Assembly: GCF_900177375.1 (NCBI RefSeq)
Contig: NZ_FWZU01000005.1
Location: forward strand, 310,001-374,000
Reading direction: 5' to 3'
DNA: 64,000 nucleotides
DNA from: Desulfovibrio gilichinskyi
Lineage (GTDB): Bacteria; Desulfobacterota; Desulfovibrionia; Desulfovibrionales; Desulfovibrionaceae
The position numbers and the translations under genes were made by a program. Under the pieces are notes generated by a model, which saw nothing but the letters and a program-made list of their open reading frames with translations, searched no databases and was not told the origin of the DNA. Of this stretch, positions 3,080-20,332 are shown piece after piece. The first letter of the stretch is position 1, and every line of letters begins with the position of its first letter.

Positions 3080-3109
3080 TTGACATTTTTCCAGACATTC
3101 GCATAAATT
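3080..3109 (+). promoter_or_regulatory. Probable sigma-70 promoter of the YheO-type regulator
   Basis: A perfect -35 element TTGACA at 3080-3085 is followed after 18 bases by TAAATT at 3104-3109 as a -10-like box. Transcription would start near 3116, downstream of the ATG at 3112. This supports the TTG at 3151 as the real translation start. Confidence 0.5.
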
Positions 3110-3150
3110 TTATGGCGGTGATAAATTTTTATTACGAACAGGAGAGTAGC

Positions 3151-3873: not shown

Positions 3874-3890
3874 GTTCTTTTTCACTAGAA

Positions 3891-3922
3891 GCCTGAGAAA
3901 TATCTGTTTTCAGGCATTTTTT
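3891..3922 (+). terminator. Rho-independent terminator after the YheO-type regulator
   Basis: GCCTGA pairs with TCAGGC around a short A/T-rich loop, with extra AAA/TTT pairing, and a run of T follows. It separates the regulator gene from the ridA cluster. Confidence 0.7.
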
Positions 3923-3949
3923 CTTGCGAGGTGTGATAATAATTTTTTA

Positions 3950-3972
3950 TCAATAAGATAAATTCTTATTGA
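3950..3972. promoter_or_regulatory. Palindromic operator candidate upstream of ridA
   Basis: Two perfect 9-base arms, TCAATAAGA and TCTTATTGA, are separated by TAAAT. The site lies between the PAS/HTH regulator gene and ridA, about 100 bases before the ridA start. It has the size and symmetry of a dimeric regulator site. The bound protein is unknown; the upstream regulator is the obvious candidate. Confidence 0.45.
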
Positions 3973-4071
3973 CTCACGGTTATTTTATTCCTATGAGAAA
4001 GACGTTGCAACCACTCTTTTGGGTTGCTCGGTCAAAATCAAATAAGAAGTCAGTTATAGGGAGAAACAAGA

Positions 4072-4446
4072 ATGAAGAAAGTTATCGTAAGCGAAAAGGC
4101 TCCAGCAGCAATAGGATGTTATTCACATGCAATCGAAGCTGGAAATATGGTTTTTACCTCCGGTCAACTGCCTATTGACGCTGCAACAGGTAAAATGCCT
4201 GAAACTGCGGCAGAGCAGGCAAAACAGTCTCTTGAAAATGTTAAACACATTTTGGAAGCTGCCGGATTAACCATGGATGATACAGTAAAAACAACTGTAT
4301 ACATCAAAAATATCAGCGATTTTCCTGCAGTAAACGAAGTTTATGCAACCTATTTCGCTAAACCTTTCCCTGCCAGAAGTTGTTTTGAAGTGGGTAACCT
4401 GCCTCTTGGAGCGCTGGTAGAGATTGAGGTTATTGCTTCCAGATAA
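4072..4446 (+). CDS. ridA: RidA family enamine/imine deaminase
   Basis: A 124-residue protein of the RidA (YjgF/YER057c/UK114) family. These trimers hydrolyse reactive 2-aminoacrylate and related enamines/imines to 2-ketoacids and ammonia. Family landmarks include SEKAPAAIGCYSHAIEAGN, the FTSGQLPID segment, and the C-terminal PARSCFEVGNLPLGALVEIE, which carries the conserved arginine that binds the substrate carboxylate. The start has an AGGGAGA Shine-Dalgarno. It is the first gene of a likely operon with a symporter and an L-cysteine desulfidase. Desulfidases release 2-aminoacrylate, so local RidA would clear the toxic intermediate and feed pyruvate. That functional link is inference from context and known chemistry. 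Confidence 0.93.
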   Translation: MKKVIVSEKAPAAIGCYSHAIEAGNMVFTSGQLPIDAATGKMPETAAEQAKQSLENVKHILEAAGLTMDDTVKTTVYIKNISDFPAVNEVYATYFAKPFPARSCFEVGNLPLGALVEIEVIASR

Positions 4447-4519
4447 TTGATATTAGCGGCTGAGTGGTGAGTGGAAATTTAAAAAGATTGGTTTAAAAAG
4501 CATATTTATGGGGTGTAAA

Positions 4520-5734
4520 ATGTCTTCAGAATCACGGTTGAAAGAATTCGGCTTGATATTTAAGCTTCTCGTGGGGATTGCAGCAGGTGTTGTGATAGGG
4601 CTCTTTGCCAATGACGCCGTAATGGAAGTAATGGTAACAGTTAAATACGTAATCGGTCAGTTAATATACTATACGGTTCCCCTTGTTGTTATTGGTTTCA
4701 TTGCTCCTGCTATTACAAGACTTGGTCACAATGCCCACAAAATGTTGGGCGCAGGTGTCGGCCTTGCGTATCTTTCAGCAGCCGGAGCAGCCACAATGGC
4801 CGCTTTTGCCGGATATGCTCTCATTCCACATCTTTCTATTGCCACTCATATGGAAGGGTTGCAGGAACTTCCTAAGGTTGTTTTCCAGTTAAATATACCT
4901 CCTGTTATGTCTGTTATGACTGCACTTGTCACAGCCATAATTATAGGAATCGCTACAATCTGGACTCAGGCTAAAAATTTTGAAAACATGCTGGGTGAAT
5001 TTGAATCAATTATGATGCAGGTTGTTAACCGCATTGTTATTCCTATTCTTCCTGTTTTCATTGCTGCAACGTTTGCCGGGCTTGCTTACGAAGGAAGCCT
5101 GACTCATCAGCTTCCCGTCTTTTTGGAAGTTATCGTAATCGTTTTGGTCGGCCATTTCATCTGGCTCACAGTTCTTTACACAATTGCCGCACTTATCTCT
5201 AAGAAGAACCCGATGGAAGTCGTTAAACATTATTTACCTGCATATCTGACAGCTGTCGGAACAATGTCCAGTGCTGCAACATTGCCTGTTTCACTTGAAT
5301 GTGCCGGTAAATCAAAAGTTCTTTGTAAAGACACCGTTGAATTTATGGTTCCACTCGGAGCAACTATCCATCTATGCGGTTCAGTTTTGACTGAAACATT
5401 TTTTGCCATGACTATCTCAATGATGCTTTACGGTCATATGCCTACAGTTGGAACAATGGCACTATTTGTCGGTCTTTTCGGAATATTTGCAATCGGTGCT
5501 CCCGGCGTTCCCGGTGGAACCGTTATGGCTTCTCTCGGAATCGTTGTAGGTGTTCTTGGATTTGATCCTGCAGGCGTAGCACTTCTCCTTGCAGTTTTTG
5601 CATTACAGGACAGCTTCGGAACAGCATGCAACGTTACCGGTGACGGAGCTCTTGCTCTGATGCTTGAAGGGATTTTTAACCGTCACGGTGAGCTGGAAAA
5701 ATTACATCTCAGCCCTGAAGGACAGGATATATAA
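4520..5734 (+). CDS. Cation:dicarboxylate/amino-acid symporter (DAACS-type)
   Basis: A 404-residue polytopic membrane protein of the sodium/proton:dicarboxylate or amino-acid symporter family (SDF/DAACS, relatives GltP and SstT). Hydrophobic helices run from residue 10 onward. The family's serine-rich re-entrant region appears as AVGTMSSAATLPVS near residue 248, and GAPGVPGGTVMAS and the final DSFGTACNVTGDGA segment form the substrate-binding core. The start is the ATG at 4520, preceded by GGGGTG; an upstream ATG at 4508 has no such signal. The stop overlaps the next start by one base. Given the cysteine desulfidase downstream, it probably imports cysteine, cystine, serine or a related amino acid, but specificity cannot be read from sequence. 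Confidence 0.88.
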   Translation: MSSESRLKEFGLIFKLLVGIAAGVVIGLFANDAVMEVMVTVKYVIGQLIYYTVPLVVIGFIAPAITRLGHNAHKMLGAGVGLAYLSAAGAATMAAFAGYALIPHLSIATHMEGLQELPKVVFQLNIPPVMSVMTALVTAIIIGIATIWTQAKNFENMLGEFESIMMQVVNRIVIPILPVFIAATFAGLAYEGSLTHQLPVFLEVIVIVLVGHFIWLTVLYTIAALISKKNPMEVVKHYLPAYLTAVGTMSSAATLPVSLECAGKSKVLCKDTVEFMVPLGATIHLCGSVLTETFFAMTISMMLYGHMPTVGTMALFVGLFGIFAIGAPGVPGGTVMASLGIVVGVLGFDPAGVALLLAVFALQDSFGTACNVTGDGALALMLEGIFNRHGELEKLHLSPEGQDI

Positions 5735-7020
5735 TGAGTAAACAAGATTGGTCTGCTTATGCAGATATTATCAACCGCGAAGTTGTGCCTGCGCTTGGAT
5801 GCACAGAGCCGATAGCCATTGCTCTGGCGGCTGCAAAAGCTGTTGAAACTTTAGGTTGTCAGCCTGAAAAAACAATAGTTAAAGTCAGCGGTAATCTGCT
5901 TAAAAACGGAATGGGAGTCGGCGTTCCCGGTACTGGAATGACTGGTCTGGATATCGCCGCAGCTGTCGGAATTACCGGCGGAAAGTCAGAGCTGGTTCTT
6001 GAAGTTCTGCGTGATCTGACAGAAGAGCAGGTCAGCGTTGCTAAGAAAATGCTCACAGATAACAAGTTGTCTGTTGAACTGGCTGAAACCGAAGAAACTT
6101 TATACGCAGAAGTCCTTGTACAGTCAGGTGACGACTCTGCTCGTTGTGTACTGGCTAGATCGCATAGCGCAATCGTACTTGTTGAGAAAAATGGAGTTGA
6201 AGTTTTTTCTGCTCCGTGGATCAGCGTAGAGGATGATGACAGCGATTGTAAGTTAACAATGAAAGATATCTTTGAATATGCAACAAAGGCTCCTGTAGAA
6301 TCGCTTAAGTTTATACTTGAAGCAGCCAGGCTGAATGAAGCGGTAGCTTCTGAAGGGCTTGCAAGCGATTGGGGACTTAAGGTCGGAAGATCGATGGTGC
6401 GCGATATCGAAGACGGACTTCGCTCTGACGATGTTGTTTCATACGCTGTAAGACTGACTGCCGCGGCCTCTGATGCTCGTATGGAAGGCATAAGCATGCC
6501 GGTAATGAGTAATTCAGGAAGCGGAAATCAGGGATTAACAGCAACTCTTCCGGTTGTCGCTTTTGCAAAACACTATAAGTCCACCGAAGAACAATTGATT
6601 CGTTCTTTAATTATGAGCCATCTCACAGCAATACATCTCAAGCATAGTCTTGGACGTTTATCCGCGCTGTGCGGAGCAAGTCTTGCTGCAACTGCAGCTG
6701 GATGCGGTATTACTTTGATACTTGGCGGCGGGCTTAAAGAAGTCGAAGGAACAATACGCAACACCTTGGGTGATATCGCAGGGATGGTTTGCGACGGTGC
6801 TAAGACTTCCTGTGCACTTAAAGTTGCTTCTGCTGTAGAAGCCGCAATAAATGCAGCTTTCCTTTCAATGAAAGGGATCTGCATTCCGGGGAAAGACGGC
6901 ATAATGGACGATAACATTGAAACCTGTATTAAAAATATCGGTTATCTCGGATCATTCGGTATGATCGGAGCTGATAAAGCTATCTTAAAGATTATGACCA
7001 GTAAAAAAGCTGCTGCATAA
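5734..7020 (+). CDS. cyuA: L-cysteine desulfidase family protein (CyuA/YhaM-like)
   Basis: A 428-residue member of the UPF0597/CyuA family, related to the alpha chain of iron-sulfur L-serine dehydratases. Characterised members convert L-cysteine to pyruvate, ammonia and hydrogen sulfide with a [4Fe-4S] cluster. Conserved features seen here are VVPALGCTEPIAIALAAA with Cys23, the glycine-rich SNSGSGNQG segment near residue 255, CGASLAATAAGCG, and CDGAKTSC near residues 353-360, whose cysteines are candidate cluster ligands. The start codon overlaps the symporter stop, so translation is coupled. The gene ends just before a bidirectional terminator. A serine-specific activity cannot be excluded. 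In a sulfate reducer the sulfide released would add to respiratory sulfide. Confidence 0.88.
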   Translation: MSKQDWSAYADIINREVVPALGCTEPIAIALAAAKAVETLGCQPEKTIVKVSGNLLKNGMGVGVPGTGMTGLDIAAAVGITGGKSELVLEVLRDLTEEQVSVAKKMLTDNKLSVELAETEETLYAEVLVQSGDDSARCVLARSHSAIVLVEKNGVEVFSAPWISVEDDDSDCKLTMKDIFEYATKAPVESLKFILEAARLNEAVASEGLASDWGLKVGRSMVRDIEDGLRSDDVVSYAVRLTAAASDARMEGISMPVMSNSGSGNQGLTATLPVVAFAKHYKSTEEQLIRSLIMSHLTAIHLKHSLGRLSALCGASLAATAAGCGITLILGGGLKEVEGTIRNTLGDIAGMVCDGAKTSCALKVASAVEAAINAAFLSMKGICIPGKDGIMDDNIETCIKNIGYLGSFGMIGADKAILKIMTSKKAAA

Positions 7021-7041
7021 ATCTGATATAAATTGTCTCAC

Positions 7042-7078
7042 AAAAAAACCCCGTCAGAATTTCTGACGGGGGTTTTTT
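7042..7078. terminator. Bidirectional terminator between cyuA and nfnB copy 1
   Basis: CCCCGTCAGAA pairs with TTCTGACGGGG, flanked by A7 on one side and T6 on the other, so it can stop both the plus-strand cyuA operon and the minus-strand nfnAB. The right part of this hairpin lies inside the duplicated segment. Confidence 0.9.
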
Positions 7079-7096
7079 GTTTGTTATTCTTAGGTC

Positions 7097-8521
7097 TTAT
7101 TCAAATTCTACTTTCAACCGTTCTGCAATGGTTTTAGCAGCTTTTCTACCTGCTCCCATGGCGGAGATTACAGTTGCTGAACCCCCGACGATGTCTCCTC
7201 CGGCAAAAACATTCGGAATAGAAGTTTCACCTGTTTCAGGATCAGCTTCAATGTATCCGCGTTTGCTTAAGGTGAGGCCTGGAGTAGCTTCGAGAAGCAC
7301 CGGGTTGGCTCCGGTTCCGACTGCAAGGATGACCATGTCGACTTCCAGTTCTTTTGTCTTGCCTTCAACCGGAACAGGTCTGCAGCGACCTGAGTCGTCC
7401 GGCTCACCTAGTTCCATTACCTGTAAGGTCATGGACTTAACGTGTGAGTTTTCATCTGCATTGATGGAAATAGGGGAAGTGAGCAGTTCAAGCTGCACAC
7501 CTTCTTCAATTGCGTGATGAAGCTCTTCACGTCTGGCGGGCATTTCATCCTGAGTACGACGATAAGTTATGTAGACATTTTCCGCGCCGAGCCTGAGGGC
7601 TGTGCGGGCTGCGTCCATAGCAACGTTTCCGCCGCCGACAACTGCAACATTGCGCGGTCTCGGGGCCGGAGTGTCGTAGTTGGGGAAGTCGTACGCACGC
7701 CCTAAGTTGATGCGGGTCAAATACTCGTTAGAAGAGTAAACGCCGACGAGGTTTTCACCGGGGATGTTCAGGAACCATGGCAGCCCTGCGCCTACACCGA
7801 TGAAAATGGCATCGAAACCGTCATCAAGAAGGTCTTGAATCGTGATAGTTTTACCGCCGACCCAGTTGGGAAGAAATGTAACGCCTTTAGCCCAGAGTGC
7901 TCCGACTTCGCGGGCGACAATGGATTTGGGGAGTCTGAATTCAGGGATACCATAAACAAGAACTCCGCCGATTTCGTGCAGAGCTTCATATACTGTGACA
8001 GGTACGCCGCGCGCGGCAAGATATCCCGCAACCGTAAGGCTTGAAGGGCCTGAACCGATACATGCTACTTTTACATGTTCGTTTGGCAGACTGCACGCTG
8101 TGTCACCTGTGATCATTTCACAGGCGGAGTCACTGTCGAAAGTGTCGGCAACGAATCTTTCAAGACGGCCGATGGCAACAGGTTCATGCTTTTTACCGAG
8201 AATACAGGACCCTTCGCACTGATTCTCCTGAGGACAGACTCGTCCGCAGACGGCAGGCAGGGCGTTGGTCTGTTTGAGAACTTTATATGCAGAAGGAATA
8301 TCTCCTACTGCTAGATGTCCGATGAAACTTTTAATATCGATTTCAACAGGACAGCCTTTCTGACATGTAGGAACTTTGCACTGGATGCAGCGGTTTGCTT
8401 CTTCAATAGCCTGCTCGCGGCTGTAACCAAGTGCGACTTCTTTGAAGTTTTTGTTGCGGACATTTGCAGGCTGTTCCGGCATGGGAGTACGGGTGGGGTT
8501 GAACTTTTTTTTATTTACCAT
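7097..8521 (-). CDS. nfnB: NfnB, large subunit of electron-bifurcating transhydrogenase (copy 1)
   Basis: A 474-residue flavoprotein matching the large subunit of NADH-dependent reduced ferredoxin:NADP oxidoreductase (also annotated as glutamate synthase beta chain). The N-terminal domain has the two-cluster cysteine pattern CIQCKVPTCQKGCPV and CGRVCPQENQCEGSC. It is followed by an FAD-binding GSGPSSLTVAGYLAARG and an NADP-binding VVGGGNVAMDAARTALRLG motif, and ends with the family GGD segment (FAGGDIVGGSATV). The start at 8521 has AGGAG and overlaps the nfnA stop by 11 bases; this gives the family's usual length. With NfnA it should couple ferredoxin and NADH oxidation to NADPH formation in the cytoplasm. 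Its sequence is the same as the copy at 13675-15099. Confidence 0.93.
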   Translation of the reverse strand: MVNKKKFNPTRTPMPEQPANVRNKNFKEVALGYSREQAIEEANRCIQCKVPTCQKGCPVEIDIKSFIGHLAVGDIPSAYKVLKQTNALPAVCGRVCPQENQCEGSCILGKKHEPVAIGRLERFVADTFDSDSACEMITGDTACSLPNEHVKVACIGSGPSSLTVAGYLAARGVPVTVYEALHEIGGVLVYGIPEFRLPKSIVAREVGALWAKGVTFLPNWVGGKTITIQDLLDDGFDAIFIGVGAGLPWFLNIPGENLVGVYSSNEYLTRINLGRAYDFPNYDTPAPRPRNVAVVGGGNVAMDAARTALRLGAENVYITYRRTQDEMPARREELHHAIEEGVQLELLTSPISINADENSHVKSMTLQVMELGEPDDSGRCRPVPVEGKTKELEVDMVILAVGTGANPVLLEATPGLTLSKRGYIEADPETGETSIPNVFAGGDIVGGSATVISAMGAGRKAAKTIAERLKVEFE

Positions 8522-9350
8522 GCTCGCTCCTGAACAAATCCATTGATTCGCCCTCTTGCTTTTTATACTGGGCAAGGCGCATTCTGAGTTCGTTAAAGTC
8601 CACTTTGTGTCCGTCGAATTCCGGGCCGTCAACACATGCAAAGCGGGTTTCTCCGCCGACGTTGCAGCGGCAGGCTCCGCACATTCCGACTCCGTCAACC
8701 ATAATAGAGTTAAGGCTTACTACGGTCCTTACTCCGAAAGGTTTTGTGACTTTAGAAACGGCTTCCATCATAGGAACCGGGCCGATGGCGACAACTTCTG
8801 CAACATCTTTATCTTTTTCAAGACGGTCACGGAGAACTTCGGTAACAAATCCTTTGTGTCCGGTACTTCCGTCGTCAGTTGCGATCAGAAGTTCAGGACA
8901 GAATCCGCCGAGTTCATCACAGAACAGGAGCAGGTCTTTGCTGCGGGCACCGACAATTGCGACAACATGGTTGCCTGCTCTGTGGTGACCTTTAGCAATG
9001 TGGTGCATGGCGGCAATTCCGGTTCCGCCGCCGACACATATGACGGTTCCGCATTTTTCAATATGAGTAGGCTTTCCGAGAGGTCCGCAGACGTCAAGGA
9101 TGGTGTCGCCTTCTTTCAGTGTTTCAAGAAGAGCCGAACTTTTACCTACAACGAGGTAAACAATGGTGATTGTTCCGGCATCCAGATCCGTATCAGCAAT
9201 AGTCAGAGGAACACGTTCCCCTTTGTCGTGGATACGAAGAATGACGAAGTTGCCCGGTTTTGCCTTTTTGGCAATTTGAGGTGCATGAATAACCAGCATG
9301 CTTGTCTGGCCTGGAATCAGCGCCTTTTTTCGAAGAATTTTGTTGCTCAT
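8511..9350 (-). CDS. nfnA: NfnA, small subunit of electron-bifurcating transhydrogenase (copy 1)
   Basis: A 279-residue FAD/NAD-binding protein of the ferredoxin-NADP reductase/dihydroorotate dehydrogenase electron-transfer type. The flavin-binding segment RVPLTIAD, the nucleotide motif CVGGGTGIAAMHHIAKG and a C-terminal cysteine cluster CGACRCNVGGETRFACVDGP for a [2Fe-2S] centre are all present, as in NfnA. The ATG is preceded by AGGAG. The gene overlaps nfnB, a standard bicistronic arrangement. It lies 144 bases downstream of the aldehyde dehydrogenase gene in the same direction, with only an imperfect hairpin between them, so this copy could be reached by read-through from the sigma-54 promoter at 11054-11068. 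Confidence 0.93.
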   Translation of the reverse strand: MSNKILRKKALIPGQTSMLVIHAPQIAKKAKPGNFVILRIHDKGERVPLTIADTDLDAGTITIVYLVVGKSSALLETLKEGDTILDVCGPLGKPTHIEKCGTVICVGGGTGIAAMHHIAKGHHRAGNHVVAIVGARSKDLLLFCDELGGFCPELLIATDDGSTGHKGFVTEVLRDRLEKDKDVAEVVAIGPVPMMEAVSKVTKPFGVRTVVSLNSIMVDGVGMCGACRCNVGGETRFACVDGPEFDGHKVDFNELRMRLAQYKKQEGESMDLFRSEHGK

Positions 9351-9430
9351 AGTCTCCTACATCGCTTGAGTTTAGTGAGGAAAGATAAGTCTTTGGATTA
9401 TATATGGGATGGATAGCTTAATATAAGTAG

Positions 9431-9457
9431 CAGGCCCCCAGTACAACTGGAGGCCTG
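9431..9457 (-). terminator. Hairpin after the aldehyde dehydrogenase gene
   Basis: In the minus-strand transcript CAGGCCUCCAG pairs with CUGGGGGCCUG (one U-G pair) around UUGUA. There is no real U-tract after it, so it may terminate only partly and let transcription run into nfnA copy 1. Confidence 0.45.
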
Positions 9458-9494
9458 ATGAATTGTACAGGATTACTTTTTTAGAGAGTTACAG

Positions 9495-10970
9495 TTAATA
9501 TAGTCCCAATGGGCTTTCATCTAAGCTTATGTATATATTCTTGGTTTGGCTGTAGTGAGCGAGCATCATCTTGTGAGTTTCACGGCCGATACCAGATTTT
9601 TTATATCCGCCAAAGGGGCTGTGCGCCGGGAGCTGGTTATAAGTATTGATCCACATCCGTCCAGTTTCAACTGCTCTCGCTACTCTTATTGCACAGTTGA
9701 TATCTTTGCTCCAAACCGCTCCGCCCAGACCGAATTCGCTGTCATTGGCCATCGCAATTACTTCTTCTTCGGTTTTAAACTTAATGACACAGACTACCGG
9801 ACCGAAAATTTCTTCTTGGGCTATGTACATTGAATTGTCCACATCGGCAAAAATAGTTGGGCTTATAAAACTTCCTTTTGCAAGCTCTCCTTCAGTTAAT
9901 CTGGTTCCACCTGTAACAAGACGTGCACCTTCTTTTTTGCCTATTTCTATGCAATTCAGAACCTGATTAAGCTGATTTTCACTAATCAGACATCCCATTG
10001 TCGTATCTTCTTTCCAAGGCATTCCGACTTTAACCGTATTAAATTTTTCGGTTATTGCTGCAAGAAAGCGATCATAAATATCTTCATGAACGAAGATTCT
10101 TGAGCCTGCACAACAAACTTGCCCCTGATTAAACAGAATGCCAAGCAGAGCACCTTCCACTGCTTTTTCCCAGGGGCAGTCAGGGAAATAAATATTGGCT
10201 GATTTTCCGCCGAGTTCAAGGGTTGCTGGAATAAGCTTTTTTGCGGCGGCATCAGCTATCATGTATCCGATATCCGTTGATCCTGTGAAAGCCAGTTTAT
10301 TGAATCCCTTGTGTTCTAAAATATAATTACCAGTTGTTGAGCCTTTTCCGGTGATGACATTTACTACTCCTGGGGGCAGAACTCTATCCAGAATTTTTGC
10401 AAATTCAAGGACGCTTAATGACGTTTCAGATGATGGTTTTATTACCACAGTGTCGCCAGCCGCAAGAGCCGGAGCAATCTTCCAAGCCGCCATAAGAAAA
10501 GGAAAGTTCCAGGGGATTATCTGGCCAACCACTCCTATTGGTTCATTCAAAACAATACTCATGGTTTTGTCGTCGATCATCGTTGCAGTGCCTTCTTCTG
10601 TTCTGACGGCACTGGCAAAATATCTAAAATGGTCTGAAGCAAGTGGGATGTCTATGTTTTTGGTTTCTCTAATGGGCTTTCCGTTGTCCAGCGTTTCCAC
10701 TAAAGCCAGTTTGTCGGCTTCTTCATCAATAAGATCTGCAATTTTTAGAAGATAAGAAGCGCGTTCTTGGGGAGAGATCTTTTTCCATGTAGTAAAAGCT
10801 TTCCGAGCAGCGGCTACGGCCATGTCAATATCTTCTCTGCCGGCATTGACGCATGTTGCAAGCTCTTCACCATTGGCAGGGCAATATACTTTAAATGTTT
10901 TGCCCTCCTTACCATCTATCCATTGTCCATCAACATACAGCTTGTAACTTTGATCAATTGGTGTCTGCAT
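9495..10970 (-). CDS. NAD-dependent aldehyde dehydrogenase (AldB/AcoD-like)
   Basis: A 491-residue aldehyde dehydrogenase oxidising an aldehyde to the carboxylate with NAD(P). It carries the cofactor segment PWNFPFLMAAWKIAPALAAG, the FTGSTDIG loop, the catalytic glutamate in LELGGKSANI (near residue 252) and the nucleophilic cysteine at about 286 in FNQGQVCCAGSR. The start at 10970 has GGAGGA. The overall sequence, including the ending THKMMLAHYSQTKNI, is reminiscent of AldB/AcoD acetaldehyde dehydrogenases, so acetaldehyde is a likely but unproven substrate. A near-perfect -24/-12 promoter and an AcoR-like activator gene lie directly upstream, consistent with induction by an alcohol, acetoin or aldehyde. 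Confidence 0.93.
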   Translation of the reverse strand: MQTPIDQSYKLYVDGQWIDGKEGKTFKVYCPANGEELATCVNAGREDIDMAVAAARKAFTTWKKISPQERASYLLKIADLIDEEADKLALVETLDNGKPIRETKNIDIPLASDHFRYFASAVRTEEGTATMIDDKTMSIVLNEPIGVVGQIIPWNFPFLMAAWKIAPALAAGDTVVIKPSSETSLSVLEFAKILDRVLPPGVVNVITGKGSTTGNYILEHKGFNKLAFTGSTDIGYMIADAAAKKLIPATLELGGKSANIYFPDCPWEKAVEGALLGILFNQGQVCCAGSRIFVHEDIYDRFLAAITEKFNTVKVGMPWKEDTTMGCLISENQLNQVLNCIEIGKKEGARLVTGGTRLTEGELAKGSFISPTIFADVDNSMYIAQEEIFGPVVCVIKFKTEEEVIAMANDSEFGLGGAVWSKDINCAIRVARAVETGRMWINTYNQLPAHSPFGGYKKSGIGRETHKMMLAHYSQTKNIYISLDESPLGLY

Positions 10971-11053
10971 AAGTGTTCCTCCAAATAAGATTAAGTAAAT
11001 AAAGCTCCTTCCCACTTCAGACCCGTTTGTCTGGAGTAAGTTGAAGCTCTACA

Positions 11054-11068
11054 GCAAGTATGGTGCCG
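11054..11068 (-). promoter_or_regulatory. Sigma-54 (-24/-12) promoter of the aldehyde dehydrogenase gene
   Basis: Read on the minus strand, CGGCAC-CATAC-TTGC matches the consensus TGGCAC-N5-TTGC with one mismatch and exact GG-N10-GC spacing. It lies 84 bases before the aldehyde dehydrogenase start. A sigma-54 activator gene ends just upstream of it. Confidence 0.85.
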
Positions 11069-11156
11069 CATGTAAGCTAAGTTGTAATGATGGGATAAAC
11101 AGGGATGTTTTTGAGGTGTTATGGTGAGTCTATCTTTTTTAGTTGTTGAGCTTTGT

Positions 11157-11179
11157 GGAACACTTTGAACAAGTGTCCC
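11157..11179. promoter_or_regulatory. Upstream activator dyad for the AcoR-like regulator
   Basis: GGAACACTT and AAGTGTCCC form a 9-base inverted repeat (8 of 9 match) around TGAAC. The site lies about 90 bases upstream of the -24 box, the usual distance for an enhancer-binding protein. That the adjacent activator binds it is inference. Confidence 0.6.
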
Positions 11180-11237
11180 GTTATTTGGTACATATGTTCA
11201 GTTTATGATTTCTAAATTCTTTGAATTGGAGTCAGGA

Positions 11238-13253
11238 TTATTTGAAAAATTGTTGTTTGGAAATATTGTAGAAACTCATTTTACGGTAAACGGTGTTACG
11301 GGAAAGGTGCATTGCTTTGGCAACCTTGCTGATATTACCACTATGTATGTCCAGAGATTTAATAAGAGCTTCTTTTTCGATTAGAAGGCCTGACATCCCT
11401 TTCGGACAAGGGATCTGCGCAGAACAAATAGGAGAAGCTGAGGAAAAGGTTTCCTCTTGTATCTGAGTTATTCTCGCTGGCAAATGCTCAACGCACAGGC
11501 TTGTAGTTCCGTGTCCCGTACTGACCAGTTTTTCGACTACATTTTCAAGTTCGCGAATGTTTCCTGGCCATTCATATTTCATAAGTTGTTGCAGTAGATT
11601 GTCTGGGACGCAATCAATGTGGCGATCAAGTCGTGTGCATATTTTTTTTAGAAGATAATTGAATAGATCGATCAGGTCTTCCATTCTGTCTCTGAGCGGA
11701 GGAACCCGAACATGTATTACATTTAATCGATAGTAAAGGTCAGCCCGAAAATTTTCTTTGTGAACTTCTTTTTGGAGGTTTTTATTTGTAGCACAAACAA
11801 ATCGAACATTTACAGGGATAGTATGATCCCCACCGATACGAGTTATTTTCTTATCTTGAAGTACACGTAAAAGGATGGCTTGCTGGTCAATCGGCATGTC
11901 TCCGATTTCATCTAGAAAAAGAGTCCCACCATCCGCCATTTCAAATTTTCCAGGTCTGCCGCCGCGTCTGGCTCCGGTAAAAGCCCCTTCATTGTACCCA
12001 AAAAGTTCACTGGAAATTAATTCTCTGGGTAGTGCTGCGCAGTTCAGTGCTATAAAAGGACCATTCTGGCGAGGACTCTGATTATGTATGGCTTGCGCGA
12101 ATAATTCTTTCCCTGTGCCGCTCTCGCCGGAAATAAGGATATTGCTTGTACTTGATGCAGCTCCTTTAGCGATTCTTATTGCATCTTGCAGTTTTGAACT
12201 GGAGCCGATGATGTCTGTAAAATTGAAAGAGGCTTGCGATCCGCTGAAGCGGTTTACCAGTTTTTTAATATTGTTTATCTGGTTTAAAAATAGAACCGCA
12301 CCGTTTGAATTCCCATCCCCGTCCTTAAGCGGTTTGGTTGTCACAAGGCAATGGCAACGCCCCTTGGTTGTTTCAACCATCATCTCCATTTCTTTATGTT
12401 CTTTTTCTTTTTCTAATTTTTCTAGAATCTTAGGAGATTTTCCTAGAATCTCTCTTACGTATTTTCCTTTAATATCTGCGCCTAGTATCTGAGTTGCTGG
12501 CGGGTTGACCTGAATGATTCTTCCTTCTTTATTTATTATTATAGCCCCATCTGACATAGTATGAAAAATGTTATTCAAACTGTTGTTAAGTACATTTAAT
12601 TCATAATTTTTATTTTTAATTCTGATTTGATCTTTTATAGCTTCAACTGCCGCAACGATCATACCAAGGGTATGCAGATGGACTTCACTGGAGGGTCCGG
12701 AAACTTGTAAAACACCGATAACTGTCCCGGTATCGTTAAAAATAGGAGCAGCTGAACAAGTCCAGTGGTGCAACTTGGCACAGTAATGTTCTTCACCTGA
12801 TATCTGAATAGGAACTTTCAGTTTAAGGACGGTGCCGATCCCATTTGTCCCAACCGCCTCTTCTGTCCAGTTAGTTCCAGCTACCAAGTTGACCTTTGAG
12901 GCACTGTCCGCAATGTCATAATCACCGATGCATTCTATTATAACTCCAAGTTCATTTGATAGAAATACTACTAATCTTGAACCTGCTATGAATTCATAAA
13001 GTCTATCCATAAAAGGTTTCGCAATTTCAACAAGATGCATATGGCGAATGCGTAACTGTTTCAGCTGATATTTATTGAGGATAAGATTGGATATTTTGCT
13101 ATATGGATCAACATTCGCTTTATAACACCGATGCCAGGACTCAGCTATTTCAGGTCTAACTGTCTGCGGTTGAAGCGAGCCTGTAATTACAAACTGCTCC
13201 CATGCTTTTTTTAGAGTAACACCAGATAGCTTAAATCCATTATTTGAATTCAC
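11238..13253 (-). CDS. AcoR-like sigma-54-dependent activator
   Basis: A 671-residue enhancer-binding protein. An AcoR-type N-terminus (RPEIAESWHRCYKANVDPYS) leads into a GAF domain (GTNWTEEAVGTNGIGTVLKL, HHWTCSAAPIF), then a PAS segment near residues 225-330. The AAA+ domain has Walker [13 protein letters not shown] and an intact GAFTGA loop for sigma-54 contact. A Fis-type helix-turn-helix (HSGNISKVAKAMHLSRNTVY) closes the protein. The start is a GTG with AGGGAAG upstream. The gene precedes the aldehyde dehydrogenase gene on the same strand, with a -24/-12 promoter and a dyad in the 267-base gap. It probably senses a small alcohol, ketone or aldehyde through GAF, by analogy with AcoR. Confidence 0.92.
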   Translation of the reverse strand: MNSNNGFKLSGVTLKKAWEQFVITGSLQPQTVRPEIAESWHRCYKANVDPYSKISNLILNKYQLKQLRIRHMHLVEIAKPFMDRLYEFIAGSRLVVFLSNELGVIIECIGDYDIADSASKVNLVAGTNWTEEAVGTNGIGTVLKLKVPIQISGEEHYCAKLHHWTCSAAPIFNDTGTVIGVLQVSGPSSEVHLHTLGMIVAAVEAIKDQIRIKNKNYELNVLNNSLNNIFHTMSDGAIIINKEGRIIQVNPPATQILGADIKGKYVREILGKSPKILEKLEKEKEHKEMEMMVETTKGRCHCLVTTKPLKDGDGNSNGAVLFLNQINNIKKLVNRFSGSQASFNFTDIIGSSSKLQDAIRIAKGAASSTSNILISGESGTGKELFAQAIHNQSPRQNGPFIALNCAALPRELISSELFGYNEGAFTGARRGGRPGKFEMADGGTLFLDEIGDMPIDQQAILLRVLQDKKITRIGGDHTIPVNVRFVCATNKNLQKEVHKENFRADLYYRLNVIHVRVPPLRDRMEDLIDLFNYLLKKICTRLDRHIDCVPDNLLQQLMKYEWPGNIRELENVVEKLVSTGHGTTSLCVEHLPARITQIQEETFSSASPICSAQIPCPKGMSGLLIEKEALIKSLDIHSGNISKVAKAMHLSRNTVYRKMSFYNISKQQFFK

Positions 13254-13617
13254 TTTTCATACTTCCCTGTCAGATTTTTAAGTTAAAATGTAAGAAGGTA
13301 TGCTGATTCTTGTTTTTCCAATTCAGGTGATAGCTTTAGCAAGTGCTGTTTGTATTGATTATCGGGATGTTTTAGTTAAAAATTCTTTAATAATGAGGCA
13401 AAAAATTAATCTTTGCATTTTATATTGTCAATAAAATCATGGAAAGTTAAAATATTAATATGCTAAATATAACAGGTTAAGTTTATTTATATTTTTCATT
13501 AATAAGGAAGTTAATATTTATATTACTCTTTGATTAGTACCGAACAATTTTATAAAAAGTATCGTTTTCATGTTACTTTTTATAAATTTATTCATTATCT
13601 TCTTATGACTTTAGTAT
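13254..13617. other. AT-rich intergenic region with no gene seen
   Basis: About 360 bases between the start of the sigma-54 activator gene and the second nfnAB repeat. It should hold the activator's promoter on the minus strand, but no confident -35/-10 pair or operator was identified. No coding potential was seen. Confidence 0.5.
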
Positions 13618-13656
13618 AAAAAAAACCCCCGTTAGAATTTCTGACGGGGGTTTTTT
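13618..13656. terminator. Terminator after nfnB copy 2
   Basis: CCCCCGTTAGAA pairs with TTCTGACGGGGG, flanked by A8 and T6. Compared with the copy-1 hairpin it has a T for C change in the left arm, giving a C-A mismatch in the minus-strand RNA and so probably a slightly weaker stem. Confidence 0.85.
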
Positions 13657-13674
13657 GTTTGTTATTCTTAGGTC

Positions 13675-15099
13675 TTATTCAAATTCTACTTTCAACCGTT
13701 CTGCAATGGTTTTAGCAGCTTTTCTACCTGCTCCCATGGCGGAGATTACAGTTGCTGAACCCCCGACGATGTCTCCTCCGGCAAAAACATTCGGAATAGA
13801 AGTTTCACCTGTTTCAGGATCAGCTTCAATGTATCCGCGTTTGCTTAAGGTGAGGCCTGGAGTAGCTTCGAGAAGCACCGGGTTGGCTCCGGTTCCGACT
13901 GCAAGGATGACCATGTCGACTTCCAGTTCTTTTGTCTTGCCTTCAACCGGAACAGGTCTGCAGCGACCTGAGTCGTCCGGCTCACCTAGTTCCATTACCT
14001 GTAAGGTCATGGACTTAACGTGTGAGTTTTCATCTGCATTGATGGAAATAGGGGAAGTGAGCAGTTCAAGCTGCACACCTTCTTCAATTGCGTGATGAAG
14101 CTCTTCACGTCTGGCGGGCATTTCATCCTGAGTACGACGATAAGTTATGTAGACATTTTCCGCGCCGAGCCTGAGGGCTGTGCGGGCTGCGTCCATAGCA
14201 ACGTTTCCGCCGCCGACAACTGCAACATTGCGCGGTCTCGGGGCCGGAGTGTCGTAGTTGGGGAAGTCGTACGCACGCCCTAAGTTGATGCGGGTCAAAT
14301 ACTCGTTAGAAGAGTAAACGCCGACGAGGTTTTCACCGGGGATGTTCAGGAACCATGGCAGCCCTGCGCCTACACCGATGAAAATGGCATCGAAACCGTC
14401 ATCAAGAAGGTCTTGAATCGTGATAGTTTTACCGCCGACCCAGTTGGGAAGAAATGTAACGCCTTTAGCCCAGAGTGCTCCGACTTCGCGGGCGACAATG
14501 GATTTGGGGAGTCTGAATTCAGGGATACCATAAACAAGAACTCCGCCGATTTCGTGCAGAGCTTCATATACTGTGACAGGTACGCCGCGCGCGGCAAGAT
14601 ATCCCGCAACCGTAAGGCTTGAAGGGCCTGAACCGATACATGCTACTTTTACATGTTCGTTTGGCAGACTGCACGCTGTGTCACCTGTGATCATTTCACA
14701 GGCGGAGTCACTGTCGAAAGTGTCGGCAACGAATCTTTCAAGACGGCCGATGGCAACAGGTTCATGCTTTTTACCGAGAATACAGGACCCTTCGCACTGA
14801 TTCTCCTGAGGACAGACTCGTCCGCAGACGGCAGGCAGGGCGTTGGTCTGTTTGAGAACTTTATATGCAGAAGGAATATCTCCTACTGCTAGATGTCCGA
14901 TGAAACTTTTAATATCGATTTCAACAGGACAGCCTTTCTGACATGTAGGAACTTTGCACTGGATGCAGCGGTTTGCTTCTTCAATAGCCTGCTCGCGGCT
15001 GTAACCAAGTGCGACTTCTTTGAAGTTTTTGTTGCGGACATTTGCAGGCTGTTCCGGCATGGGAGTACGGGTGGGGTTGAACTTTTTTTTATTTACCAT
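13675..15099 (-). CDS. nfnB: NfnB, large subunit of electron-bifurcating transhydrogenase (copy 2)
   Basis: Identical in translated sequence to the 474-residue protein at 7097-8521, with the same start context (AGGAG, 11-base overlap with nfnA). It has the iron-sulfur cysteine motifs, the FAD-binding GSGPSS motif and the NADP-binding VVGGGNVAMD motif. Complete conservation, including silent positions as judged from other frames, points to a recent duplication or ongoing gene conversion. Unlike copy 1, no gene lies close upstream on the same strand, so this copy must have its own promoter in the unique sequence beyond 15974 and is the more likely constitutive source of NfnAB. Confidence 0.93.
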   Translation of the reverse strand: MVNKKKFNPTRTPMPEQPANVRNKNFKEVALGYSREQAIEEANRCIQCKVPTCQKGCPVEIDIKSFIGHLAVGDIPSAYKVLKQTNALPAVCGRVCPQENQCEGSCILGKKHEPVAIGRLERFVADTFDSDSACEMITGDTACSLPNEHVKVACIGSGPSSLTVAGYLAARGVPVTVYEALHEIGGVLVYGIPEFRLPKSIVAREVGALWAKGVTFLPNWVGGKTITIQDLLDDGFDAIFIGVGAGLPWFLNIPGENLVGVYSSNEYLTRINLGRAYDFPNYDTPAPRPRNVAVVGGGNVAMDAARTALRLGAENVYITYRRTQDEMPARREELHHAIEEGVQLELLTSPISINADENSHVKSMTLQVMELGEPDDSGRCRPVPVEGKTKELEVDMVILAVGTGANPVLLEATPGLTLSKRGYIEADPETGETSIPNVFAGGDIVGGSATVISAMGAGRKAAKTIAERLKVEFE

Positions 15100-15928
15100 G
15101 CTCGCTCCTGAACAAATCCATTGATTCGCCCTCTTGCTTTTTATACTGGGCAAGGCGCATTCTGAGTTCGTTAAAGTCCACTTTGTGTCCGTCGAATTCC
15201 GGGCCGTCAACACATGCAAAGCGGGTTTCTCCGCCGACGTTGCAGCGGCAGGCTCCGCACATTCCGACTCCGTCAACCATAATAGAGTTAAGGCTTACTA
15301 CGGTCCTTACTCCGAAAGGTTTTGTGACTTTAGAAACGGCTTCCATCATAGGAACCGGGCCGATGGCGACAACTTCTGCAACATCTTTATCTTTTTCAAG
15401 ACGGTCACGGAGAACTTCGGTAACAAATCCTTTGTGTCCGGTACTTCCGTCGTCAGTTGCGATCAGAAGTTCAGGACAGAATCCGCCGAGTTCATCACAG
15501 AACAGGAGCAGGTCTTTGCTGCGGGCACCGACAATTGCGACAACATGGTTGCCTGCTCTGTGGTGACCTTTAGCAATGTGGTGCATGGCGGCAATTCCGG
15601 TTCCGCCGCCGACACATATGACGGTTCCGCATTTTTCAATATGAGTAGGCTTTCCGAGAGGTCCGCAGACGTCAAGGATGGTGTCGCCTTCTTTCAGTGT
15701 TTCAAGAAGAGCCGAACTTTTACCTACAACGAGGTAAACAATGGTGATTGTTCCGGCATCCAGATCCGTATCAGCAATAGTCAGAGGAACACGTTCCCCT
15801 TTGTCGTGGATACGAAGAATGACGAAGTTGCCCGGTTTTGCCTTTTTGGCAATTTGAGGTGCATGAATAACCAGCATGCTTGTCTGGCCTGGAATCAGCG
15901 CCTTTTTTCGAAGAATTTTGTTGCTCAT
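15089..15928 (-). CDS. nfnA: NfnA, small subunit of electron-bifurcating transhydrogenase (copy 2)
   Basis: Identical in translated sequence to the 279-residue protein at 8511-9350, with the same AGGAG-ATG start. The RVPLTIAD flavin motif, the GGGTGIAAMHH nucleotide motif and the C-terminal CGACRC...C iron-sulfur motif are intact. Upstream identity with copy 1 extends only 46 bases beyond the start codon. The ribosome-binding site is therefore shared but the promoter region is not, so the two copies can be regulated differently while making the same protein. Confidence 0.93.
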   Translation of the reverse strand: MSNKILRKKALIPGQTSMLVIHAPQIAKKAKPGNFVILRIHDKGERVPLTIADTDLDAGTITIVYLVVGKSSALLETLKEGDTILDVCGPLGKPTHIEKCGTVICVGGGTGIAAMHHIAKGHHRAGNHVVAIVGARSKDLLLFCDELGGFCPELLIATDDGSTGHKGFVTEVLRDRLEKDKDVAEVVAIGPVPMMEAVSKVTKPFGVRTVVSLNSIMVDGVGMCGACRCNVGGETRFACVDGPEFDGHKVDFNELRMRLAQYKKQEGESMDLFRSEHGK

Positions 15929-16071
15929 AGTCTCCTACATCGCTTGAGTTTAGTGAGGAAAGATAAGTCTTTGGCCCTCATAAAGCAAGGAACTAAGTCA
16001 TATACCGTACTTGCCAAAACTGATTTAACGTATTATATTTAAAACAGTACTTTGGTAATCTGTTTTTAGCT

Positions 16072-16089
16072 GCTTCCACGGATGGAAGC
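16072..16089. other. Hairpin in the leader of the orphan gene at 16210
   Basis: GCTTCCA and TGGAAGC form a perfect 7-bp stem around CGGA. Two more short hairpins follow before the gene: TGCGG/CCGCA and GCCT/AGGC at about 16114-16160. Together they suggest a structured leader on the plus strand. No known riboswitch consensus was recognised. Confidence 0.4.
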
Positions 16090-16209
16090 CGAAAATCCCA
16101 CGTATCCTTCATGGATGATTGCGGTAATGCCGCAGGAACGACGGGCTGCCTACGCAGGCAAGCTGTTGTTTTATGTTTTCGTGGATCGGTTTCTTTAGTG
16201 GAGAATTTT

Positions 16210-16629
16210 ATGCGAATAGCAGCACAGTCCGTAAATTTATACGCAGAAAATGCCCAAAGATGGGCCGTGCAAACTGACGCCGTATCTGAAAATGTACAGG
16301 CACGTGTTAAAACGCGTAGTTTTGGACTGAATTTAGGGAAGCTGGGCGTAAGTTTCACTGCAAAGGACCTCGAATTTGAACCAAGCGAAGCACAAGTTGC
16401 ATCGCAGGAGTTTCGGTCAAAATCATATCCCCGTACTCAGAGCGAAGAGAGCGACGTTCAAGATGTTGCTAAATATCTTATGCAAACTCAAACAGCTCTT
16501 TCCGAGGATCCTGTAACATACACTTCAAGCAATTCAGGGTATAAATTAAGTCGAGCTATTTCGGCTTATACGCAGCAGTCAGGTTCGCTGAACAGCTCGC
16601 AGCCCGGAAGAGCTCTGGGCAAAGTGTAA
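16210..16629 (+). CDS. Hypothetical protein, 139 residues
   Basis: A small protein not recognised by family. The ATG at 16210 has GGAGA a few bases upstream. The frame extends back to an ATG at 16111, but that part overlaps the structured leader and lacks a ribosome-binding site. There is no signal peptide or membrane segment. The sequence is rich in Ser, Gln and Ala, begins MRIAAQSVNLYAENAQRW, and its second half (for example TSSNSGYKLSRAISAYTQQS) looks low in hydrophobic core and possibly flexible. It stands alone between nfnA copy 2 (divergent) and lepA and is followed by its own hairpin. A surface- or flagellum-associated role is conceivable but unsupported. Confidence 0.65.
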   Translation: MRIAAQSVNLYAENAQRWAVQTDAVSENVQARVKTRSFGLNLGKLGVSFTAKDLEFEPSEAQVASQEFRSKSYPRTQSEESDVQDVAKYLMQTQTALSEDPVTYTSSNSGYKLSRAISAYTQQSGSLNSSQPGRALGKV

Positions 16630-16643
16630 TTCCTGAACGTAAT

Positions 16644-16672
16644 AAACTATGGCCTGCAAAGGCTATGGTTTT
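16644..16672 (+). terminator. Probable terminator after the 139-residue gene
   Basis: AAACTATGGCC can pair with GGCTATGGTTT (two G-U pairs in RNA) around TGCAAA, followed by TTTTGCTTAT. It starts 15 bases after the stop codon. Confidence 0.6.
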
Positions 16673-17048
16673 GCTTATGAAAATGAGATTTAACGCGTCT
16701 TTTTCAGTTGAAGATTGCTAGCAGCTTATATCTGAAGTACTGTATGATTAGTACTTAATTTTTCTTTTAGTACTTTATTTTACCACTAATGTAATTTGAT
16801 GGATCAATCAATTCTTTTTGTGAAAAAATATCTATCGAATTTATTCAGTTAAATCCATCTCTTTTTGGCTTATTTGTGAGCCTGCTTTATTCTCCCATTC
16901 TTTTGTTTGATTTGGGGTGGCATTACGTATTAGACAGTATGAAGCAAATACCGTAATAAGGTCTCGCTTTGGGCCATATCCGTGTGGCAAAATAACGTTA
17001 AATTTAAGGAGCCGGCAGTTCGGTAATATGAACGTCGACCGTTTTAAT
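16673..17048. other. lepA upstream region, no gene seen
   Basis: About 375 AT-rich bases before lepA. It contains several copies of the hexamer AGTACT between about 16735 and 16780, two of them arranged as AAGTAC...GTACTT. The lepA frame is open from 16917, but that extension does not resemble the protein family. The lepA promoter should lie here but could not be placed. Confidence 0.45.
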
Positions 17049-18854
17049 ATGGTAAAAATATCAAATATAAGAAATTTCAGTATTATCGCTCACATCGATC
17101 ACGGTAAATCAACTTTGGCGGACCGTATCCTTGAAATCACCGGTCTTGTCGGTGATCGCGATAAAAAAGCTCAATATCTTGATAAGATGGATCTTGAGCG
17201 TGAGCGTGGAATCACCATCAAAGCTCAGAGTGTCCGTATTCCTTATAAAGGTTCAAATGGTGAGGACTATATCCTTAACCTGATTGATACTCCCGGGCAT
17301 GTTGACTTCAGTTATGAAGTTTCGCGTAGTCTTGCCGCTTCTGACGGTGCTTTGCTGGTTGTTGATGCAACGCAGGGCGTTGAGGCACAGACTCTTGCCA
17401 ACGTGTATCTCGCTCTTGATCATGACCTTGAAATTATTCCTGTTTTAAATAAAGTTGATCTGGCCAGTGCTGATGTTGACAGGGTTGCCGGTGAAATTGA
17501 AGAAATTATCGGTCTGGATTGCTCAGATCCTCTCATGATAAGCGCGAAAACAGGTCTTAATGTGGATAAAGTCCTTGAATCAATTGTAACGAATCTTCCC
17601 GCTCCGACAGGATCTCCGAATAAACCGCTTAAGGCTCTGATTTTTGATTCATGGTACGACTCATATCAGGGCGTAGTTGTTCTTTTCCGTATTTTGGATG
17701 GAACAATTAAAAAGGGCGACAAAATTCAGATCTTTTCTTCCAAGTTGATTTTTGATGTCACCTCTTTAGGCGTTTATTCCCCGGAAGCTCTCAGCGTTAA
17801 AAGCCTCAGTGTCGGAGAGGTCGGTTTTCTGTGCGCCAGCATGAAGGAGCTAAATGATGCTCCTGTAGGGGATACTATTACGCTGGCTTCTGATCCTGTT
17901 AAAGAGCCTTTCCCGGGTTTTCAGGAAGTTAAGGCCATGGTTTTTTGTGGATTATATCCGGTTGAACCTGCCGAATATGAGCCGCTTAAAAGTGCACTTG
18001 AAAAATTGCAGCTTAATGATACTGCTTTTTCATATGAAGCTGAGTCCTCCACCGCTTTGGGGTTTGGTTTCCGGTGCGGTTTCCTCGGCCTTTTGCATAT
18101 GGAAATTATTCAGGAACGGCTGGAGCGTGAATTTCAGGCTAAGCTGATTGCAACTGCTCCTTCGGTTATTTATCAGGCAAAGCTCATGAACGGTACTGTT
18201 CTTGAAATTGATAACCCCAGTAAAATGCCTGACGCAACGGAGCTGGAATCTCTTTCTGAGCCTTATTGCCGGCTGGAAATTCATGTCCCGAATGAGTATG
18301 TCGGAGCCGTTCTTAAGCTTTGTGAAGAAAAACGCGGTCTTCAGAAGGATATGCGCTATCTTTCTTCATCAAGAGTTATTATTACTTACGAAGTTCCTTT
18401 CGCGGAAATTATGTATGACTTCTTTGATAAATTGAAGTCTCACACGAAAGGTTATGCCTCACTTGATTATGAAATTATTGATTATCGTGTCTCGAATCTT
18501 GTTAAACTTGACATTTTGATTAACACTGAACCGGTTGATGCCTTTTCAGTGATTGTTCATAAAGATTCGGCATATGCACATGGTAGAAGTCTTGCTTTGA
18601 AGCTCAAAAGAGCTATTCCGCGTCAGATGTTTGAAGTTGTAATTCAGGCTGCAATAGCCAGAAAAATTATTGCGAAAGAACGAGTTGCCCCGTTTAGGAA
18701 AAACGTTATTGCCAAGTGTTACGGCGGAGATATTTCCCGTAAACGCAAGCTTCTGGAAAAACAGAAGGAAGGTAAGAAGCGTATGAAGAAAATGGGGAAT
18801 ATTGAAATTCCGCAGGAAGCTTTCCTTGTAGTACTAAAAGCCGGAGACGAATAG
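17049..18854 (+). CDS. lepA: Elongation factor 4 (LepA)
   Basis: A 601-residue translational GTPase that acts on stalled or mistranslocated ribosomes. The G domain has [13 protein letters not shown] (P-loop), the [11 protein letters not shown] switch I, the [16 protein letters not shown] switch II and [12 protein letters not shown] for guanine recognition. The LepA-specific C-terminal domain is complete ([20 protein letters not shown], then [17 protein letters not shown]). The start at 17049 gives the family's standard length. In-frame starts further upstream would add residues not seen in relatives. No strong Shine-Dalgarno precedes it; AAGGAG at 17006 is too distant. lepB follows 65 bases downstream, the common lepA-lepB arrangement. 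Confidence 0.97.
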
Positions 18855-18919
18855 GTCACGGTTTTAAAAAACGATATTTCCAAGGGGTCTTCCTTTGGAA
18901 TTTTATAAGGACGAACAGA

Positions 18920-19522
18920 ATGAATCCCAGATGGCAGAGTACCGTTAAAGAGTATATTGAGGCCCTTTTTATTGCCCTTTTATTGGCCCTTTTTATAAGA
19001 ACTTTTATAGTTCAGGCCTTTAAAATACCTTCCGGTTCCATGTTGCAGACTCTTCAGATCGGAGATCATCTTCTGGTAAACAAGTTTACTTATGGAGTTA
19101 AAGTTCCGTTCACTTCAAAGGTTTTGATCAAGATGGGAGATCCTGAATATAAAGATATTATTGTATTCAGATATCCTGGTGATCCCAGCAAAGATTATAT
19201 TAAAAGAGTAATCGGTGTTCCGGGTGATACTGTTGAAATTAAAAATAAGAAAGTTTTTGTGAACGGTAATGAACTGATTGAGCCGTATACACAGTTTATA
19301 GATAAGGATCATATTTCTGCGCTTAGAGATAATATGCCTCCACGCCATATTCCTGAGGGTGAATATTTTGTAATGGGCGACAATAGAGATGGTTCAAATG
19401 ATTCAAGATTCTGGGGTAATGTTCCTCGTGATAATATTCTGGGCAAGGCATGGATTTTATACTGGTCGTGGGGCGGACCTAATACCGTGCGCTGGGATCG
19501 AATAGGACTCATTCTCCACTAA
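18920..19522 (+). CDS. lepB: Signal peptidase I
   Basis: A 200-residue type I leader peptidase that cleaves signal peptides from secreted proteins at the outer face of the inner membrane. A single membrane anchor (ALFIALLLALFIRTFIVQAF, about residues 15-34) is followed by box B PSGSM with catalytic Ser40. Box D DYIKRVIGVPGD has the catalytic lysine near residue 95, and box E is GEYFVMGDNRDGSNDSRFWG. The start has AAGGA. It probably forms a transcription unit with lepA and ends before a strong terminator. Confidence 0.97.
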   Translation: MNPRWQSTVKEYIEALFIALLLALFIRTFIVQAFKIPSGSMLQTLQIGDHLLVNKFTYGVKVPFTSKVLIKMGDPEYKDIIVFRYPGDPSKDYIKRVIGVPGDTVEIKNKKVFVNGNELIEPYTQFIDKDHISALRDNMPPRHIPEGEYFVMGDNRDGSNDSRFWGNVPRDNILGKAWILYWSWGGPNTVRWDRIGLILH

Positions 19523-19574
19523 AAATGAGTTTGTAATTATTTCGAATCAGTTTTTTATTTTATGTCTATTATAT

Positions 19575-19605
19575 AGAGTCCGGCTTTTGCCGGGCTCTTT
19601 TTTTT
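19575..19605 (+). terminator. Rho-independent terminator after lepB
   Basis: AGAGTCCGG pairs with CCGGGCTCT (one G-U pair) around a CTTTTG loop, followed by a long run of T. Confidence 0.9.
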
Positions 19606-19707
19606 AAATGAAAATTAGGTTGCCATGTTTCTTTAAGTCCGCCATATTCTATAAAGTTAGAACAAAATATTTAGTGTATATGACTATTTATAATCAGGAA
19701 GTTTTTA

Positions 19708-20250: not shown

Positions 20251-20332
20251 TTTTTGTAATTAATGGTAGTTCTTTACATTATAACAGAGAATATATAACT
20301 CATTTGGGGACTTGTAATTAAAGGAGTTCCCG

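Follow-up and report, generated by a model that had tools for sequence, protein, structure and literature searches.

The window analysed here, a stretch of 64,000 nucleotides from Desulfovibrio gilichinskyi (contig NZ_FWZU01000005.1, positions 310,001 to 374,000), raises the question of how two identical copies of the nfnAB operon came to stand on either side of an aldehyde dehydrogenase (ALDH) gene and its sigma-54-dependent activator. The answer judged moderately probable is that an activator-ALDH block was inserted recently into the resident nfnAB locus, duplicating nfnAB on both sides. Base-by-base comparison of positions 7056-9396 (copy A) with 13634-15974 (copy B) revealed the same base at 2341 of 2341 positions in one orientation, with a period of 6578 bp, and the exact identity stops precisely at these four coordinates. 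A repeat of 2341 identical bases is inexplicable by chance. The original prediction had named these two segments as matching in the same orientation, and the base-by-base alignment that it proposed as a check bears this out with 0 differences.

All features described for the repeats and the insert lie on the reverse strand. Copy A carries nfnA (8511-9350; small subunit, 279 aa) and nfnB (7097-8521; large subunit, 474 aa from the ATG at 8521), and copy B carries the same genes at 15089-15928 and 13675-15099. The adjacent nfnA (FAD/NAD-binding, DHODB-type Fe-S) and nfnB (Fer4_20, pyridine nucleotide-disulphide oxidoreductase) have the make-up of the NfnAB family, with Pfam PF10418, PF14691 and PF07992 and NCBIfam NF004862 and TIGR01316 all above cut-off; in these searches nfnB was started at 8539, six codons longer than from 8521. 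PDB support for NfnB was given by the NfnI subunit 5jca_L (1.2e-138), and the repeat genes are predicted to encode an NfnAB electron-bifurcating transhydrogenase. A search of the genome (3.96 Mb, 14 contigs) returned the two full nfnAB copies and one 54-base match, and no further nfnAB was found there. On the right the repeat ends abruptly, at 46 nt upstream of the start of nfnA: in the same register, 129 of the 500 bases that follow agree. The left edge falls inside the loop of the nfnB terminator; the match continues there at 12 of the following 14 bases and then drops to 122 of 500. The terminator after nfnB of copy A (7040-7080) has a distal arm which, together with the sequence beyond it, belongs to a flank shared with the nearest congener, G009. 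The terminator of copy B (13620-13656) has a slightly different distal arm, despite which it folds stably (-21.3 kcal/mol, z -6.1).

The state of the locus before the event can be read from the genus sample of 17 genomes, one of which is the window's own. G009 is the nearest congener by nfnAB, with 91.9% DNA identity over the coding part. Window positions 1-9396 are collinear with 3153-12530 of the G009 locus and window positions 13619-21858 with 10174-18428, and both pieces overlap in G009 on its single nfnAB. Since the outer flanks are collinear and overlap in this way, the window corresponds to a G009-type locus with an insert of 4237 bp (9397-13633), absent from G009, and a 2341-bp duplication of nfnAB. 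This is the structure of an insertion-duplication, or merodiploid, in which direct repeats of one resident segment surround an insert and a relative has the empty site. The resident nfnAB was found on the same fetched stretch as lepA and an open reading frame (ORF) termed ORF16 in 16 of 16 relatives, which together with the G009 collinearity indicates that the outer flanks of the pair are ancestral.

The comparison with G009 also dates the pair. The repeat stretch differs from G009 by 189 substitutions and copy A from copy B by 0; fourfold sites differing from G009 number 23 of 140 in nfnA and 73 of 250 in nfnB, and the identity to G009 per 100 bases is 87-97% from 9360 to 7161 and 82% in 7160-7061. 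With no difference in 2341 bp, at most about 3 differences are compatible at 95%, compared to the 189, so the two copies are estimated to go back to one sequence within about the last 2% of the time elapsed since the split from G009. This age would apply either to the duplication or to the last conversion between the copies. The original prediction of a recent duplication or gene conversion is supported by these counts, and the synteny comparison that it had suggested showed one nfnAB and no insert in G009, with no old, diverged pair seen in close relatives. What the prediction could not recognise is that the DNA between the copies is an insert in a locus with a single nfnAB, and that another nfnAB accompanies this activator-ALDH pair in four relatives. 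As regards composition, the third-position GC of nfnAB (7097-9350) is about 0.46, compared to 0.34-0.37 in eight other genes of the region; in nfnA of G009 it is also 0.46, with values of 0.32-0.65 across the relatives.

The insert has counterparts elsewhere in the genus. An ALDH match at E <= 1e-200 was obtained in five of the 17 genomes, including the window's, and in none of G009 and 11 others. In four of the 16 other genomes (G001, G002, G004 and G015) the activator and ALDH are followed by a diverged nfnAB of their own, nfnAB-2, and these blocks stand apart from the resident nfnAB, at unrelated sites. The gene content of the relatives' loci was taken from tblastn; ORF calls gave antisense frames over ALDH in G015 and in G238, a genome outside the genus. 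The flanking ORFs of at least 110 aa around the four blocks have no common homologues at E <= 1e-15; the G002 block lies on a 12.3-kb contig ending shortly after it, with the right flank barely visible. The two unlinked nfnAB in each of these four relatives are 71-78% identical.

The closest pair of blocks is that of G004 and G001, which align over 6893 bp at 95.4% while their flanks are unrelated apart from short matches. The coding DNA of nfnAB in this pair is 96.8% identical in the block compared to 84.5% at the resident locus, and across every aligned position of the fetched stretches it is 95.3% compared to 81.3%. The same direction was obtained for G015 against G004 (84.5% in the block, 77.4% resident) and against G001 (84.1% and 75.7%). 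As a block of 95% identity with unrelated flanks contrasts with 81% at the resident locus, there is good evidence from these comparisons that the block moved horizontally to different sites, at least between G004 and G001. In locus L128 (G004) the block spans 3049-9917 and in L130 (G001) 3143-10034, with sharp edges at both unrelated sites. No mobility gene was noticed near these two blocks, the flanking proteins not having been searched against family libraries. A relocation of the block within the window's own genome from a G004-like site was also considered and rejected: the right flank of G004 gave only scattered short matches here, and for its left flank none of the genome's 7 matches reached E <= 1e-30.

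Outside the genus, 247 family genomes were sampled; among the 37 ALDH matches listed at E <= 1e-200, 32 were extra-genus, and nfnAB lay within the stretch in 5 of the 20 of these that were fetched. In G238 the 18 kb fetched contain the activator and ALDH but no nfnAB. Of 80 named nfnA loci, many of which are truncated by contig ends, 2 have a related ALDH nearby and none includes a pair of nfnA more than 60% identical. No nfnAB doublet was observed in 20 genus loci.

The identity of the two copies in the window can be assigned. Copy B stands beside ORF16 and lepA, and it alone retains the resident upstream region of nfnAB (15975-16048), the presumed promoter, with a TATAAT common to G009. Copy A lies downstream of ALDH, a position equal to that of nfnAB-2 in the relatives, but its sequence is that of the resident nfnAB. 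It begins with the 46-nt resident leader, which is joined directly to the 3' region of ALDH without the resident region upstream of that leader; the leader is present in none of the four nfnAB-2. The downstream flank of copy A is the resident flank common to G009. In a tree of 32 rows, the window NfnAB, entered once for its two identical copies, is placed as the sister of G009's resident NfnAB with support 96/89, and the four nfnAB-2 form a separate clade (100/98); the resident NfnAB of G002 joins neither group, and five forks are left open. Copy A is of resident origin, and the tree placement with the resident leader rules out that it is the relatives' nfnAB-2. A mosaic with patches of nfnAB-2 was rejected as well, because no stretch from 9360 to 7161 is closer to any of the three tabulated nfnAB-2 than to G009. 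The nfnB stop and the next bases of the repeat have about 8 letters in common with nfnAB-2 of G002 and not with G009, a match too short for use.

An older duplication whose copies were kept identical by gene conversion, except at one edge, is considered rather unlikely. The 12 of 14 matching bases past the terminator edge are what a loss of conversion close to the end of homology would leave, and the block of the window is well diverged from all known relatives. The other edge of the repeat is abrupt, however, and a junction between two similar terminators gives the same pattern at the first one. The two nfnAB of the four relatives have stayed 71-78% identical, but these are unlinked and not direct repeats.

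The insert itself contains two genes, in accordance with the original prediction of only an ALDH gene and a sigma-54 activator between the copies. The ALDH gene (9495-10973; 492 aa from the ATG at 10973, behind GGAGG) has ExaC as its best PDB match. The NCBIfam model of the ExaC acetaldehyde dehydrogenase (NF050026) scored 609.9 bits against a cut-off of 900, and the protein is therefore labelled only as an aldehyde dehydrogenase. The activator (11238-13253) has GAF, PAS, AAA+ and Fis-type helix-turn-helix domains, and it is assigned to the sigma-54 activators (enhancer-binding proteins, EBP) by PF00158 (236.5 bits), PF02954 (29 bits) and a GAFTGA motif in the translation. A sigma-54 -24/-12 promoter candidate, CGGCACCATACTTGCT (11053-11068), lies upstream of ALDH. 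Scored against the 11 positions of the -24/-12 consensus, the candidate at 11068 agrees at 10 of 11, and such sites occur upstream of ALDH in all six blocks scanned (one at 11/11, two at 10/11 and three at 9/11). As the site recurs in all six blocks and its letters are identical in the window and G238, ALDH is predicted to be probably activator-dependent. Downstream of ALDH lies a GC-rich hairpin (9431-9457), which lacks a T run here and is also found in the ALDH-nfnAB-2 gaps of four of four relatives. No RNA element was detected in the ALDH-nfnA gap (9300-9600) by Rfam at E up to 1. Scans for promoters and terminators gave results close to those expected from shuffled sequence and are of little weight.

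The absence of a transposase and of terminal repeats, as had been predicted, was reproduced: none of the four proteins encoded by repeat and insert gave a Pfam match to a transposase or integrase, and no inverted repeat of at least 16 nt spans the insert with its arms at the two ends. A composite transposon or insertion sequence was rejected, as the repeats encode NfnAB, no transposase was found and the repeat ends are not mutual inverted repeats. A tRNA as target site was likewise looked for, and the window holds no tRNA.

Under the favoured insertion, a horizontally moving activator-ALDH block would have entered the resident nfnAB locus, and the outcome would formally equal a 4237-bp insertion with a 2341-bp target duplication. 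In an alternative form of the same event, a circle of 6578 bp would have integrated by recombination in nfnAB. Copy B would retain the resident upstream region and copy A would lose it. The order of these events and the use of nfnAB homology in the recombination are what we infer from the arrangement.

Several observations weigh against this origin. The ALDH-side junction, 46 nt upstream of nfnA, lies outside the homology of the resident nfnAB with the known nfnAB-2, so simple homologous recombination with a known nfnAB-2 donor fails for that edge, and therefore either the donor differed or one joint would be illegitimate. The ALDH of the window shows 85-87% protein identity to the genus blocks, and the donor is unsampled. 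This distance of ALDH and activator to the relatives would also fit an old vertical inheritance with losses, and the composition of the two genes is not foreign. As the G238 pair is without nfnAB in its 18 kb, the block of the window may never have carried nfnAB-2. The pairs involving G002 are hardly more alike in the block (72.8-74.0%) than at the resident locus (71.6-73.6%), and the three sigma-54 sites that score only 9/11 reach a score which is met elsewhere in those loci.

A more specific proposal is that the traveller was a transposase-less activator-ALDH-nfnAB operon, linear or circular on arrival, whose passenger nfnAB served as an address label for recombination with the resident nfnAB. 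The resident copy would then have replaced the incoming nfnAB-2, and the resulting perfect direct repeat of 2.3 kb would let the 6578-bp unit leave as a circle or amplify. The proposal is regarded as doubtful.

The assembly must also be considered, since this draft genome comprises 14 contigs and a perfect repeat of 2341 bp is longer than short reads. The true copy number could differ, either as a tandem array of the 6578-bp unit or as a chromosome with a single nfnAB and a free circle of 6578 bp, both of which give the same short-read graph as the assembled duplicate. Yet a single 475-kb contig contains the two repeats with all four of their junctions to unique sequence, and a plain collapse would not yield the resident-leader junction at 9396/9397. 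A different copy number is considered distinctly unlikely. Missing 16S and 23S matches were rejected as a sign of short-read assembly: no 16S was found in eight of eight genus genomes, four of them in one contig, so the lack of rRNA matches says nothing on the assembly. In control searches of 14 known genomes, 16S was found in 9 and 23S in 10.

Long identical direct repeats recombine, and the 6578-bp unit would therefore be expected to be lost or amplified in tandem by RecA-type events. A further step, suggested by the original prediction, would be a selected copy-number switch, in which the unit is lost or amplified to tune redox capacity to aldehyde use. The long repeats around a self-contained metabolic block permit such changes, and joint amplification would raise ALDH, activator and nfnAB together. 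No amplification or deletion junction is visible, however, and the absence of the doublet from the 20 genus loci and the 80 named nfnA loci, with their many contig ends, argues against a maintained switch, which is rated as very improbable.

With regard to expression, copy B should be expressed as in the relatives. Copy A lacks the resident upstream region, which would make it reliant on the ALDH operon or a new promoter, and it is probably read from one of these. The best reading of the locus is that a second nfnAB came to lie beside a predicted inducible ALDH by a recent insertion-duplication. It is plausible that its NfnAB would rebalance NAD(P)H and ferredoxin during aldehyde oxidation, by parallel with NfnAB-2 of Desulfovibrio alaskensis.

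The surroundings of the pair gave further observations. A block of yheO, ridA, an SDF symporter and SDH_alpha (window 3112-7020) occurs in the fetched stretch of nine of 16 relatives, including G009, and was not seen in seven, which marks the 3' flank of nfnAB as a variable spot. ORF16 (16111-16629), between nfnA and lepA, is kept in all 16 relatives and is fast-evolving, with 37-93% identity to the window; it matched no Pfam or NCBIfam family at E <= 0.001. A 6S RNA gene lies at 47240-47420 (Rfam RF00013, 110.8 bits).

The locus is a clean case from nature in which accessory genes would have settled next to a core operon and left it in two copies, and a sister species provides the empty site. 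The travelling activator-ALDH block is here partnered by an nfnAB copied from the resident operon. A stable duplication would show a housekeeping redox enzyme gaining a second, inducible copy; an unstable one would offer a ready system in which deletion and amplification can be measured. The more surprising part lies outside the window, where the data point to an activator-ALDH-nfnAB block travelling among species of one genus, to unrelated sites, without recognised mobility genes. Its transfer makes a route without mobile elements testable in sulfate reducers.

In the literature on nfnAB in Desulfovibrio and on ALDH of Maridesulfovibrio, the arrangement was absent from the titles and abstract openings of the papers listed, which is weak evidence of absence. 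A review mentions two or three nfnAB sets in some sulfur-reducing bacteria, such as D. fructosovorans and D. alaskensis (PMC6405883). Price et al. (2014, PMC4215793) described the operons NfnAB-1 and NfnAB-2 of D. alaskensis G20, of which NfnAB-2 was important in malate and fumarate oxidation and was proposed as a source of reduced ferredoxin. The likeness consists in two nfnAB operons in one sulfate reducer; the G20 operons are called paralogous in that report, whereas the copies here are identical and flank another module.

As for the event, insertion with duplication of a core operon is of a known kind, of which this locus is a real and clean example. DNA uptake in Streptococcus pneumoniae yields merodiploids and tandem duplications (Johnston et al. 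2013, PMC3784515). In the merodiploids outlined there, the donor fragment pairs in an alternative way and thereby links sister chromatids, and resident DNA is duplicated beside the integrated piece, which resembles the present structure. The duplications of that study span about 100-900 kb and arise from repeats already in the chromosome, whereas the duplication here covers 2.3 kb, with no such repeat known to have existed beforehand. Oliveira et al. (2017, PMC5635113) proposed, across species, transfer hotspots without mobile elements, with integration via recombination at flanking core genes. The present locus is similar to these hotspots in that accessory genes lie by a core gene, with integrase or transposase unrecognised, and the 3' flank of nfnAB is variable across the genus; unlike the hotspots as outlined in that work, here the flanking core operon has itself been duplicated.

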